Source: Hyphomicrobiales bacterium
GTDB lineage: Bacteria; Pseudomonadota; Alphaproteobacteria; Rhizobiales; Aestuariivirgaceae
Length of the DNA: 51,497 nt
NCBI GenBank assembly: GCA_027024225.1
Contig: JALVSR010000016.1
Location: 1 to 51,497 of the forward strand
Reading direction: 5' to 3'
Shown: positions 4,543-48,560 of the stretch, piece by piece
Layout: every line of letters starts with the position of its first letter
Numbering within the stretch: the stretch's first letter is position 1
Program-made: the position numbers and the translations under genes
The notes under the pieces: model-generated
Seen by the model: only the letters and a program-made list of their open reading frames with translations
Told to the model about the DNA's origin: nothing
The model's database searches: none

Positions 4543-6972
4543 ATGACGGACAATCCCATCAACATTCCGGAAGACACCACCGAGGAGCGGCTTCCCGTTT
4601 TGCCGCTGCGCGACATCGTGGTCTTTCCGCACATGATCGCGCCGCTGTTCGTGGGGCGCGAGCGCTCCATCAAGGCGCTGGAAGAGGCGATGAGCCGCGG
4701 TCGGCGCATTCTGCTGGTGGCGCAGAAGAACCCGGCCGACGACGAGCCGCGGCCGGAAGACATCTATTCGGTAGGCACCATCGCCCAGATAATGCAGTTG
4801 CTCAAGCTCCCCGACGGCACCGTGAAGGTGCTGGTGGAAGGGGGTGCGCGCGCGCGCATCAAGGAATACGTGCGCACCGATGACTACTTCGAGGCCGAGG
4901 TGGAGCTCATCGAGGAGACGCTGGGGGACGAGCGCGAGACGGAAGCGCTGGTGCGCACCATCGTCGATCAGTTCAAGACCTACGCGCGGCTCAACAAGAA
5001 AGTGCCGCAGGAGGCGCTGGAGTCGGTGGTGAACATCGACGATCCGGCCAAGCTGGCGGACACCATCGCCGCCCATCTGTCGGTGAAGCTGGCCGACAAG
5101 CAGGAAATCCTGGAAATCGGCAACATCACCGAGCGGTTGCAGAAGGTCTTCGCCGTGATGGAGGGAGAGATCTCCGTCATGCAGGTGGAGAAGCGCATCC
5201 GCAACCGCGTGAAGAAGCAGATGGAGAAGTCCCAGCGCGAGTACTATCTGAGTGAGCAGATGAAGGCCATTCAGAAGGAGCTGGGCGGCGAGGGCGAAGA
5301 CGAGCTGGCCGAGCTGGAAGAGCGCATCAAGAAGACGAAGCTCAGCAAGGAAGCCCGCGAAAAGGCGGAAGCGGAGCTCAAGAAGCTGCGCCAGATGAGC
5401 CCGATGTCGGCCGAGGCCACCGTGATTCGCAACTATCTCGAATGGTTGCTCTCGCTGCCCTGGGGCAAGTGCTCGCGCGTGAAGAAGGACCTCGAATATG
5501 CCCAGAAGGTGCTGGATGCCGAGCACTACGGCCTGGAAAAGGTCAAGGAGCGCATCATCGAGTATCTGGCCGTGCAGCAGCGCGCCAACAAGCTGCGCGG
5601 GCCCATCCTGTGCCTGGTCGGCCCGCCGGGCGTGGGCAAGACCTCGCTGGCGCGCTCCATCGCCAAGGCCACCGGGCGCAAGTTCGTGCGCATGTCGCTG
5701 GGCGGCGTGCGGGATGAAGCCGAGATTCGCGGGCATCGCCGCACCTACATCGGCTCCATGCCCGGCAAGATCATCCAGTCCATGAAGAAGGCGGGCACCT
5801 GCAACCCGCTGTTCCTGCTGGACGAGATCGACAAGATGGGCATGGACTACCGCGGCGATCCGGCGGCGGCCCTGCTGGAGGTGCTGGACCCGGAGCAGAA
5901 CAGCACCTTCATGGACCACTATCTGGAGGTGGAATACGACCTGTCCAACGTAATGTTCGTCACCACGGCGAACACGTTGAACATCCCGGCGCCGCTGCTG
6001 GACCGCATGGAGCTGATCCGCATCGCCGGCTACACCGAAGACGAGAAGATGGAGATCGTGAAGCGCCACCTGCTGCCCAAGGCCATGAAGAGCCACGGGC
6101 TGAAGAAGGGCGAGTTCTCCATTTCCGACGAAGCGCTGCTTGACGTCATCCGCCTCTATACGCGCGAGGCCGGTGTGCGCAACCTCGAGCGCGAGATCAA
6201 CAAGCTGGCGCGCAAGGCGGTAAAGGAGCTCGTTACCGGCAAGAAGAAGTCGGTGCGCGTCACCCGTCGCAACCTGGAGAAATACCTGGGCGTGCCGCGC
6301 TATCGCTTTGGCGAGATGGAAGAGGAGGACCAGGTGGGCGTGGTCACCGGCCTGGCCTGGACCGAGGCCGGCGGTGAGCTTTTGACCATCGAGGCCGTGG
6401 ACATGTATGGCCGCGGCAAGATGACGGTCACGGGCAATCTGCGCGACGTGATGAAGGAGTCCATCGCCGCCGCCTCGTCCTACGTGCGCTCCCGCGCGCC
6501 GCAGTTCGGCATCAAGCCGACGGTGTTCGAGAAGAAGGATATTCACGTGCACGTGCCGGAGGGCGCCACGCCCAAGGACGGCCCATCGGCCGGTGTGGCC
6601 ATGGTCACGGCCATCGTCTCGGTGCTTACCGGCATCCCGGTGCGGCGTGACGTGGCCATGACCGGCGAGATCACGTTGCGCGGCCGCGTGTTGCCCATTG
6701 GCGGGCTGAAGGAAAAGCTGCTGGCGGCCCTGCGTGGCGGCATCAGGACGGTGCTGATACCGGAAGAGAACGTGAAGGACCTGGCCGAGATTCCGGACAA
6801 CGTGAAATCGCGGCTGGAGATCGTGCCGGTGAAGCACGTGGATCAGGTCATCGAGCGGGCGCTGGTGAAGAAGCCCGAGCCCATCGAGTGGGACGAGGAA
6901 GCCGAGGAAGCCGCCCGCGCCGCCGCCATGAAATCAGCTGATTCCGAACCGGCGGGTGCGCCAGCCCACTGA
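4543..6972 (+). CDS. lon: ATP-dependent endopeptidase La
   Basis: [76 protein letters not shown]; catalytic Ser in [11 protein letters not shown]. Confidence 0.99.
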
Positions 6973-29727: not shown

Positions 29728-30237
29728 ATGAGCGAACATGCCGATTTGCCGGTCGAGGCCAAGCAACTCCTTGAATATTTGCGAGAGTTGGGAATAGAAA
29801 CGCACACGCGCCAGCATCCGCCGGCCTATACGGTGGAAGATGCGAAGGAATTGCGCGGCCTCATTCCCGGCGGACATACCAAGAATCTTTTCCTCAAGGA
29901 CAAGAAAGGCAAATTGTGGCTGGTGGTGGCGCTGGAAGATGCGAAGGTGGACCTGAAGAGGCTGCCAGCGCGAATCGGTTCGGCCCGGCTTTCCTTCGGC
30001 AAGGCGGAGCTGCTGGAAGAGGTGCTGGGGGTGAAGCCCGGCTCGGTGACGCCTTTCGCGTTGATGAATGATCGCGAGGGCCGGGTGAGCGTGGTGCTGG
30101 ACGCGCGCATGATGGAGCACGAGGTGCTGAACTTCCATCCGCTGGTGAACACCGCCACCACCACCATTTCCCGCGAGGACTTCCTGAAATTCCTGCGCGC
30201 CACCGGGCACGAGCCGCTGATTGTGGACGTGTCCTGA
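29728..30237 (+). CDS. YbaK/ProX-type aminoacyl-tRNA deacylase
   Basis: LEYLRELGIETHTRQHPPAYTVEDAKELRGLIPGGHTKNLFLKDKKGKLWLVVALEDAKVDLKRL...LNFHPLVNTATTTI. Confidence 0.9.
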   Translation: MSEHADLPVEAKQLLEYLRELGIETHTRQHPPAYTVEDAKELRGLIPGGHTKNLFLKDKKGKLWLVVALEDAKVDLKRLPARIGSARLSFGKAELLEEVLGVKPGSVTPFALMNDREGRVSVVLDARMMEHEVLNFHPLVNTATTTISREDFLKFLRATGHEPLIVDVS

Positions 30238-30261
30238 GCCTGCGCGCAGGCGCGTAAAAAA

Positions 30262-30440
30262 GGTGGGAAAAGGGTGGAAAACCTGTGGATAACCTGTGGA
30301 AATCATGGTGGAGAACTCGTGGGAAGACCCAGGGAAAACCGGTTCGCGGAATGGTGGAGGAACGCAGGAACAACCTGTGGGCCAGGCTGTTAATTACGGC
30401 GTGAGGAAGCTGTGGCGTAAAGGTGAAAAACGTGGATAAT
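30262..30440. promoter_or_regulatory. Helically phased GTGGRAA / DnaA-box-like array
   Basis: GTGG at 30263, 30274, 30285, 30296, 30308, 30319 (11-12 bp spacing); perfect TGTGGATAA at 30284-30292; CGTGGATAA at 30431-30439. Confidence 0.6.
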
Positions 30441-30469
30441 TCACCCGTTCGCTCCGATCCTCGCACCCC

Positions 30470-31708
30470 GTGAAAATGCAGGGCTGCCCCATGCAAAAAA
30501 AGCCAACGACCGTGGTGCTCATCATCACCGGCGGCATCGCCGCCTATCGCGCGCTGGAGCTCATCCGCCTGCTGCGCAAGGAGGGCTTTCGTGTGCGGCC
30601 GGTGCTGACGAAGGGGGCCAGGGCCTTCATCACGCCGCTTTCCGCCGCCGCGCTGGCGGGAGAGAAGGCGCACGCGGAGCTTTTTTCCCTCACCGACGAA
30701 ACGGAAATGGGCCACATTCGCCTGGCGCGCGAGGCGGACGCGGTGGTGGTGGCGCCGGCGACGGCCGATTTCATGGCCAAGGCTGCGCATGGGCTGGCCG
30801 ATGACCTGGCCAGCACGCTGCTGCTGGCCACCACGGCGCCGGTGCTCATGGCGCCCGCCATGAACCCGCGCATGTGGACGCACCCGGCCACGCGGCGCAA
30901 TACGGCGCAGTTGCGCGCCGATGGGGTGGAGATCATCGGCCCCGAAAGCGGCGAGGTAGCCTGTGGTGAAGAAGGCGAAGGCCGCATGGCGGAGCCGGCC
31001 GAAATCCTCGCCCGCGTGCTGGCGCTGATACAGGGGCGCTCCGCCGAGTTGCCGCTGTCCGGCAAGCGGGTGCTGATCACCGCCGGGCCCACGCACGAGC
31101 CCATAGACCCGGTGCGCGTGTTGGCCAATCGCTCTTCCGGGCGCATGGGGTATGCGCTGGCCGAGGCGGCGCGGGAGAAGGGGGCGGAGGTGGTGCTCGT
31201 CTCCGGGCCCGTGGCGCTTTCCGCGCCGGCGGGCGTGGATGTGCGGCGCGTGGAAACGGCGGAAGAAATGCTGCGCGCGGTCAGGCAGGCGCTGGCGGAA
31301 GCACCGGTGGACATCGGCATCTTTACCGCCGCGGTGGCCGACTGGCGGGTGAAGAACGCAAGCGCCTCCAAGATAAAGAAGGGGCCCGAAGGCCCCCCGG
31401 TGCTGGAGCTGGAGGAAAACCCGGACATCCTGGCCACTATCGCCCAGGCGCGGGCGGGCAGGCCAAAGCTGGTGGTGGGGTTCGCCGCCGAGACGGAAAA
31501 CATCGCCCGCAATGCCCGCGCCAAGCTGAAGCGCAAGGGAGCGGATATCATCGTGGCCAACGATGTTTCCGAAAAAACCGGCATCCTGGGCGGAGACGAA
31601 ACGGAGCTGCTGGTCATCTCCCGCACGGGTGAGGAAACGCGCCTGCCGCGCCAGTCCAAGCGGGCCGCCGCGCGCGCCCTGTTGGACCTGTTGAGCCGGC
31701 ATCCGTGA
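30470..31708 (+). CDS. coaBC: Bifunctional phosphopantothenoylcysteine decarboxylase/phosphopantothenate-cysteine ligase
   Basis: IITGGIAAYRALELIRLLRKEGF...APAMNPRMW; ligase domain LITAGPTHEPIDPVRVLANRSSGRMGYALAEAA. Confidence 0.97.
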   Translation: MKMQGCPMQKKPTTVVLIITGGIAAYRALELIRLLRKEGFRVRPVLTKGARAFITPLSAAALAGEKAHAELFSLTDETEMGHIRLAREADAVVVAPATADFMAKAAHGLADDLASTLLLATTAPVLMAPAMNPRMWTHPATRRNTAQLRADGVEIIGPESGEVACGEEGEGRMAEPAEILARVLALIQGRSAELPLSGKRVLITAGPTHEPIDPVRVLANRSSGRMGYALAEAAREKGAEVVLVSGPVALSAPAGVDVRRVETAEEMLRAVRQALAEAPVDIGIFTAAVADWRVKNASASKIKKGPEGPPVLELEENPDILATIAQARAGRPKLVVGFAAETENIARNARAKLKRKGADIIVANDVSEKTGILGGDETELLVISRTGEETRLPRQSKRAAARALLDLLSRHP

Positions 31709-31896
31709 AACAACATCGATGACGGTCATGTCACGGCCCGGCCGGCGCGCACGCCCTTTTCCACAGGGATGGAAAGTCTGCACAAGCCTGTGCGTAACCT
31801 TGCCTTTCGTCTTTTGCCGGCGGCGCCCTTGCGGCACTCTTCCGTGGTATCCTTGAGCACGAAGGTGATTCGCCAAGCATGGAGAGCCGCGGGAAC

Positions 31897-32637
31897 ATGA
31901 GCGGAGCGGACACACTGGACGATATGCAGCAGCTGCTCGCCTCCATTCGCGAGGCGATCCACCATGCGCACGAGGAAACGCGCGTGGCGCAACAGGCCCT
32001 GCGGGCCGAGGCGCCCTCCGGTCTCGCCGAGGAGAATTTCGCCCACGCCGGGACGGTTGCCGCCGCTTCCGTTGCTGCTGCTACTGATGATGACGGTTCG
32101 CGCGGCGGGGCTGGCGGCAGCGGCGGGGAATCCGCGCGCTCCGGCTCCGGCCCGCATCATCCGGCGGCGACCGGGCTGTTCGCCGAAGAAGGACCAACCG
32201 CTGACAAGGCCTCCGCCAGCCACCGCACCCCCCGTCGCGAACCGTCGCCGCGGGCCTCCGCCGTGGTCATGCCTCTTTATCCCGCCGCCGATGCCGGGCA
32301 GCCATCCGCGCCCGGCGCCCCGGCCGCGGGCGCTTCCGCAGAAGGGCGGCGCACCCCCGGTGCGTCGCATCTGCCTCCGAAGGTGCAGGCACGCGTGAAG
32401 AGCGCCATGGCGCGGCTGGAGCGCATCGAGGCCGCACGCCGGGCGCTGGGTGGCGAGGAAGCCCTGCGCCAACTGGTGGCGGATCTTGTCGAACCGCTGC
32501 TGAAGGAATGGCTGGAGGAAAACCTGGCCGAAATCGTGGAGCGGCGCGTGGCGCAAGAGATCGCGCGCATCACCGGCCTCGAGGCGCCGGCCACCGGCTC
32601 CCGCTCTCGCCCGCGCTCCCGCTCCGGCGCCGGATGA
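31897..32637 (+). CDS. popZ: PopZ-like (DUF2497) polar organizing protein
   Basis: N-terminal DMQQLLASIREAI, low-complexity linker, C-terminal LVADLVEPLLKEWLEENLAEIVERRVAQEIARI; directly upstream of valS as in Caulobacter; ATG 31879 is an alternative start. Confidence 0.85.
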   Translation: MSGADTLDDMQQLLASIREAIHHAHEETRVAQQALRAEAPSGLAEENFAHAGTVAAASVAAATDDDGSRGGAGGSGGESARSGSGPHHPAATGLFAEEGPTADKASASHRTPRREPSPRASAVVMPLYPAADAGQPSAPGAPAAGASAEGRRTPGASHLPPKVQARVKSAMARLERIEAARRALGGEEALRQLVADLVEPLLKEWLEENLAEIVERRVAQEIARITGLEAPATGSRSRPRSRSGAG

Positions 32638-35528: not shown

Positions 35529-36008
35529 ATGCGCTGTCCCTTTTGCGGATCGGAACAGACACAGGTGAAGGACAGCCGCCCGGCGGAAGGCGGCGCGGCC
35601 ATTCGCCGGCGGCGCGAATGCGCCGACTGTGGTGGACGCTTCACCACTTACGAGCGCGTGCAGTTGCGCGAACTCACCGTCATCAAGCGCTCCGGCCGGC
35701 GCGTACCCTTCGACCGCGACAAGCTGGCCCGCTCGGTGCAGATCGCGCTGCGCAAGCGCGACGTGGATGCCGAGCGCGTGGAGCGCATGATCAACGGCAT
35801 CGTGCGCCAGCTGGAGAGCATGGGCGAGAACGAGGTGACCTCGCAGCAGATCGGCGAGCTGGTCATGGAGGGCCTGCGCAAGCTGGATGACGTGGCCTTC
35901 GTGCGCTATGCCTCCGTTTATCGCAACTTCACCGAGGCGGCCGATTTCTGCGAATTCCTGGCCGAATTGCAGTCTCGCGATGCCGCCGGGGGAGGCGACG
36001 ACGAATGA
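35529..36008 (+). CDS. nrdR: Transcriptional repressor NrdR
   Basis: [46 protein letters not shown] zinc ribbon plus ATP-cone. Confidence 0.98.
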
Positions 36009-48155: not shown

Positions 48156-48539
48156 GGCTGCTTCCGTCCGTCCCCGTTGCCAGTTCCGGCGCAAGGATAG
48201 TCGATTTCACCACACTTGCAAGACTTCCCCGGCCATGGGCACGCGCGCGTGCCTGATCCGCCTTTATTTTCTCCAGGGCGGCGAATCGTGCGGGAGAGCG
48301 GCGAGAGCCGCATTTGTGGCGGGCCGTTTGCCCCCGGGCACGGCTTTCGGGATGAACGTGGTGACGGAGGATGGGCGTGCGCGCCCCGCCCACAGGCTGT
48401 CCACAGCTCCTGCACCGTCTTGCCGGCCGGGCGCCGCTTGATTTGGGACGGGGAATCAGACACTTTGAAAAGCCCTCTTCAGGATGAGCCCTTCACTTGT
48501 GCATGACCGGCGCCATTCTTTTTCTCATGCTCCGGGAAG

Positions 48540-48560
48540 TTTTCCACACGATATTGTGCA
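48540..48560. promoter_or_regulatory. Candidate DnaA box overlapping a NrdR-box-like palindrome upstream of nrdJ
   Basis: TTTTCCACA at 48540-48548; CACGATATTGTG imperfect palindrome at 48547-48558. Confidence 0.3.

Follow-up and report, generated by a model that had tools for sequence, protein, structure and literature searches.

The gap between ybaK and coaBC in this Hyphomicrobiales genome holds a real, well-formed cluster of DnaA boxes, of a kind that is already known and that we have seen here in one species only. The reading that we consider most probable, at roughly 60%, is that of a lineage-specific DnaA-box cluster that is not an origin and that acts as a sink for DnaA, as a regulator of coaBC, or as both; the two roles may hold together. 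DnaA is the best candidate for the ligand of the array, and a site of DnaA control or storage is a more likely description of it than a start of replication. The stretch that we analysed, hereafter the window, is 51,497 nucleotides long and represents contig C16; the assembly, of 2.2 Mb, is fragmented into 155 contigs. The elements of the cluster and its neighbours are as follows (box scores out of 16.4).

29728 to 30237, plus strand: gene with a ybaK/ProX-type aminoacyl-tRNA editing domain (PF04073)
30238 to 30490, no strand: ybaK-coaBC gap containing the cluster
30262 to 30270, minus strand: phased unit 1, weak DnaA-like 9-mer TTTCCCACC (score 7.7)
30273 to 30281, minus strand: phased unit 2, DnaA-like 9-mer TTTTCCACC (score 11.8)
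30284 to 30292, minus strand: phased unit 3, perfect DnaA box TTATCCACA, the likely anchor
30295 to 30303, minus strand: phased unit 4, DnaA-like 9-mer ATTTCCACA (score 11.8)
30307 to 30315, minus strand: phased unit 5, DnaA-like 9-mer TTCTCCACC, after a 12-bp step (score 8.1)
30318 to 30326, minus strand: phased unit 6, weak 9-mer CTTCCCACG
30329 to 30337, minus strand: unit 7, degenerate (CCAGGGAAA on the plus strand)
30422 to 30430, minus strand: DnaA-like 9-mer TTTTTCACC (score 10.7)
30431 to 30439, minus strand: strong DnaA box TTATCCACG, abutting the preceding 9-mer at a 9-bp step (score 13.2)
30470 to 31708, plus strand: coaBC, with the Pfam domains Flavoprotein (PF02441) and DFP (PF04127)
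31757 to 31765, plus strand: isolated DnaA box TTTTCCACA, 3′ of coaBC

Read directly, the GTGG cores begin at 30263, 30274, 30285, 30296, 30308 and 30319, in steps of 11, 11, 11, 12 and 11 bp, exactly as the earlier note had described them, and together they span 30263-30322, surrounding the perfect box (30284-30292; plus-strand reading TGTGGATAA). The degenerate seventh unit that it had added is present at 30329 (CCAGGGAAAAC), as are the close box at 30431-30439 (CGTGGATAA on the plus strand) and the further box beyond coaBC, and its assignment of the downstream gene to coaBC agrees with the two Pfam domains. GTGG also occurs off phase at 30354 and 30377. A second set of cores, claimed at 30401, 30412, 30423 and 30432, survived in part: 30412 and 30432 do begin with GTGG, whereas 30401 and 30423 begin with GTGA. 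Because of this alternating make-up and a spacing of 11, 11 and 9 bp, the second set is not another GTGG array.

The layout is one of head-to-tail 9-mers separated by 2-bp gaps, with weaker boxes on either side of one strong box. When the seven units are compared, all of them have the GG and the A of GTGGNNA and six retain the GT, while the spacer bases vary, which is as expected if contacts with a protein are being maintained. Read on the other strand, several units have G or C where the DnaA box ends in A, and weak binding is therefore predicted for them.

The array exceeds what chance would produce. Positions 30238-30470 were put through 2000 dinucleotide shuffles, and no shuffle gave as many phased DnaA-like boxes as the real gap (five, against a maximum of two), as long a phased GTGG run (six, against three), as many GTGG (ten, against nine) or as high a summed DnaA-box score (34.2, against 25.2). 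Over 752 kb of its own 2.22-Mb genome, the array is also the top-ranked DnaA-box cluster, scoring 35.4 where the next scores 20.7, and the other same-strand phased runs in those 752 kb are pairs only; these scores are relative, since the DnaA matrix was set by hand to approximate TTWTNCACA. With zero mismatches allowed, GTGGNWAN4 repeated three times, a strict three-unit pattern, occurs in this genome at the array only. TTWTNCACA itself is found 57 times in the 2.22-Mb genome and six times in the 51-kb contig, where about 1.3 would be expected, a count made post hoc. Two other places with strong DnaA-box scores, on contig C28 of this genome (G000) and at 459.6 kb in the same-genus genome G003, lie inside AT-rich genes and were set aside.

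The array fills a gap of about 230 bp in the gene order carD, TPR-like gene, tRNA, ybaK, array, coaBC, DUF2497 gene, valS, nrdR, in which the TPR-like gene and valS were identified by eye. The coaBC reading frame opens with GTG at 30470 and has an in-frame ATG at 30491; its nearest named relatives come from metagenome-assembled genomes labelled Hyphomicrobiales or Alphaproteobacteria. A scan that covers alphaproteobacterial promoters poorly found no sigma-70-like promoter in the gap, and a plasmid search gave no match. The DUF2497 gene (31879-32637), between coaBC and valS, is one that we take to be of the PopZ type.

How widely is the array shared? Among the same-genus genomes seen, G007 alone keeps the order carD-TPR-ybaK-coaBC, and its interval between ybaK and coaBC measures about 32 bp and contains no DnaA box, so that the gap described here exceeds it by about 200 bp. 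In the remaining genomes of the genus, coaBC has different upstream neighbours, and no array was found upstream of it in those that have the gene (in G005, over the 100 bp that are assembled) or around ybaK in the relatives scanned. The three-unit pattern was absent from ten same-genus genomes, and 58 further genomes of the family gave a few matches at one mismatch; the one match that we read, in genus g10, falls within a gene for a protein of the enolase/mandelate racemase type and is not an array. A DNA search recovered only box pairs of 23-24 bp, in two genomes. The conservation of the 11-bp phasing that the earlier note had looked to in relatives thus failed to appear, the array being absent at every same-genus locus tested. 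Its absence marks the array as a lineage-specific feature and deprives a function of support from conservation, although it does not show that the array is non-functional. From the comparison with one relative, the difference looks like either a gain of the array in this lineage or a loss from G007. A phased cluster in one species beside a near-empty gap in its sister species offers a natural comparison, with and without the array, for DnaA availability and for coaBC.

Which protein might read these sites? Besides DnaA, an obvious candidate is MraZ, which binds phased TGGG repeats at 10-bp steps. The genome encodes one DnaA, in which the canonical box-reading signature of domain IV (GGRDHSTVLHA) is retained. 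MraZ (PF02381) had no match in this genome or in nine others of the genus, and steps of 11, 11, 11, 12 and 11 bp between GTGG cores do not correspond to TGGG at 10 bp; we therefore rejected an MraZ operator. The DnaA reading offered initially is upheld as the favoured candidate by the 9-mer geometry, the combination of strong and weak boxes, the canonical DnaA and the lack of a detectable MraZ in the genus. We place DnaA first because the geometry is like that of oriC, because viruses carry 11-bp arrays of the same kind, and because DnaA is canonical and no MraZ was found.

The two model bacteria have DnaA-box clusters outside oriC that tune the timing of replication. To our knowledge, few such clusters are known from alphaproteobacteria. 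Thermotoga has longer DnaA boxes. Two boxes in the same orientation there bind DnaA best when they are 2 bp apart (PMC10316083). The low-affinity arrays of Escherichia coli oriC consist of 9-mers 2 bp apart, to which DnaA-ATP binds cooperatively from a strong anchor box (PMC6727663). The present array is like R5M-tau2-I1-I2 and C3-C2-I3-C1 of that oriC (PMC6727663) in its same-orientation 9-mers, 2-bp gaps and strong anchor. It is unlike them in having its strong box within the run, in having neither a paired opposite array nor an unwinding element, and in occupying a place that differs from that of the hemE-side cluster of its genus. In Bacillus subtilis, DnaA-box clusters exist outside oriC, have been proposed to act as a DnaA sink, and cause early initiation when six of them are deleted (PMC13220808). 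The array shares with these clusters the grouping of boxes, probably outside oriC; its location and phasing differ, and we claim no homology. The E. coli loci datA, DARS1 and DARS2 are non-coding, bind DnaA and lie at a distance from oriC (PMC13220808). The array is likewise non-coding and a candidate for DnaA binding; a member of that group would also be expected to have an IHF/Fis architecture and to stimulate the hydrolysis of DnaA-ATP or the release of ADP. A role at coaBC would have a parallel in Caulobacter, where DnaA serves other genes as a transcription factor (PMC8203912).

The unit and its spacing also have a viral match. Tandem TGTGGAWAACC arrays in microviruses and other viral contigs have an identical 11-bp unit and spacing; in Microvirus mar31, the 11-bp unit TGTGGAAAACC is repeated in tandem about 12 times at the intergenic positions 1954-2076 before the pilot protein gene, and viral contigs contain at least 120 stretches with three units in a row. 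Tandem arrays with the same unit in viruses suggest a recurrent design. Unlike these, the coaBC locus showed no viral genes or wider homology: a phage search returned short stretches only, those that we read being the repeat unit itself. Among the papers searched, none combines Microviridae and the DnaA box.

We propose that DnaA would bind the strong box at 30284 and be passed from there along the weak boxes of the same orientation in 11-bp steps, so that a short head-to-tail oligomer could form on one face of the DNA, with a second patch of DnaA binding at 30422-30439. The cluster would then sequester some DnaA, and transcription of coaBC would be modulated in a DnaA-dependent manner, probably by repression at high DnaA-ATP. 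Because the cluster occupies the promoter-side gap of coaBC, DnaA sequestration and coaBC modulation are the most likely consequences.

Some evidence would also fit other explanations. The array might bind another protein that recognises the GTGGRAA core, or act in the leader RNA of coaBC; several units deviate from the DnaA consensus at the last base, and repeated GTGGRAA is compatible with a regulator of some other kind or with a GGA-binding RNA protein. We regard this as unlikely, although it is the strongest of the alternatives: the obvious other binder, MraZ, gave no match in this genome or the nine others of the genus, an Rfam search returned the tRNA only and no family matching the array, and two strong DnaA boxes are difficult to account for without DnaA. 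Somewhat less likely again is a functionless array that arose when an 11-bp unit was duplicated in tandem and diverged, which would fit the confinement of the array to one species, the short 11-bp arrays reported by TRF and the lengthening of the gap relative to G007. Such a duplication leaves unexplained why the core positions stay constant where the spacers vary, and why more DnaA boxes lie beyond the phased run, at 30422-30439.

That the cluster is a relocated or second chromosomal origin of the species seems to us improbable. The idea draws on its score of 35.4, which no cluster upstream of hemE in a same-genus genome reaches (these score 11.2-31.5), and on the weakness of those clusters in the closest relatives G002, G004 and G007 (11-17), where hemE-upstream boxes are few. 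Furthermore, ppsR flanks the hemE-side cluster in G003, G005, G009 and G010, while in this genome it adjoins uvrB (read by eye), with no strong DnaA boxes, and the assembly, which lacks the 5′ half of hemE together with the sequence upstream, cannot show a hemE-side origin. Against this, all eight same-genus genomes in which the region is assembled have DnaA boxes upstream of hemE, including those with ppsR elsewhere, and the parS of this genome lies in the hemE-rho-mnmE block of another contig, about 6 kb from hemE. The lowest GC content over 40 bp is 42.5% in the gap, compared with 25-40% in the hemE regions, and no AT-rich unwinding element was found beside the boxes of the array. The hemE-upstream oriC of alphaproteobacteria resembles the array in its intergenic, clustered DnaA boxes, and some relatives carry a similar GTGGRAAAAGG motif there; the relatives' boxes differ in being unphased and mostly of mixed orientation, and only they have a more AT-rich segment. 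GC skew, which the earlier note had suggested for locating the origin, showed no switch from negative to positive at 30.3 kb or elsewhere in the 51-kb contig; it could not place the origin, since hemE in G003 is not marked by a clean switch either. The suggestion of an origin-related element is accordingly unlikely to be right, given the hemE-side boxes in relatives, the parS elsewhere, and the lack of an AT-rich stretch and of a skew switch, although skew says little about origins in this genus. The other two roles suggested in that note, a titration or reactivation locus and a DnaA-controlled promoter, stand as candidates. A standard hemE origin is likely in this genome, and in G003, of which 1.07 Mb was scanned, no cluster outside AT-rich DNA is better than that of the hemE region. 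Slimmer still is the chance that the chromosomal origin moved from hemE to the ybaK-coaBC gap, or that a second was gained there, using a one-strand, 11-bp-phased DnaA array; had it moved, an intermediate stage would be seen in the closest relatives, whose hemE-side clusters are weak and whose ppsR is displaced.

Several further observations concern these regions. On the contig that carries hemE (C154), the gene is cut by the contig end and is followed by hemJ, rho, a thioredoxin-domain gene and mnmE (identified by eye, apart from hemE) and by a perfect parS core, TGTTTCACGTGAAAC, at 6289-6303, just past mnmE, with adjoining DnaA boxes at 6331 and 6353. The neighbour of ppsR, on contig C132, is a uvrB-like gene and not hemE, and hemE in G002, G004 and G007 is also without ppsR. 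On contig C11 of G003, the skew is positive over nearly all of the 1.07 Mb; it dips at 460-520 kb and does not switch at hemE (592 kb), a pattern that would suit either a contig that is chimeric or a replication layout out of the ordinary. Finally, the second-best DnaA-box cluster of the window lies at 48397-48548 and includes TTTTCCACA at 48540; it is about 280 bp upstream of a large open reading frame (48829 onward) that by eye resembles a B12-dependent ribonucleotide reductase, and the same window carries nrdR at 35529-36008.
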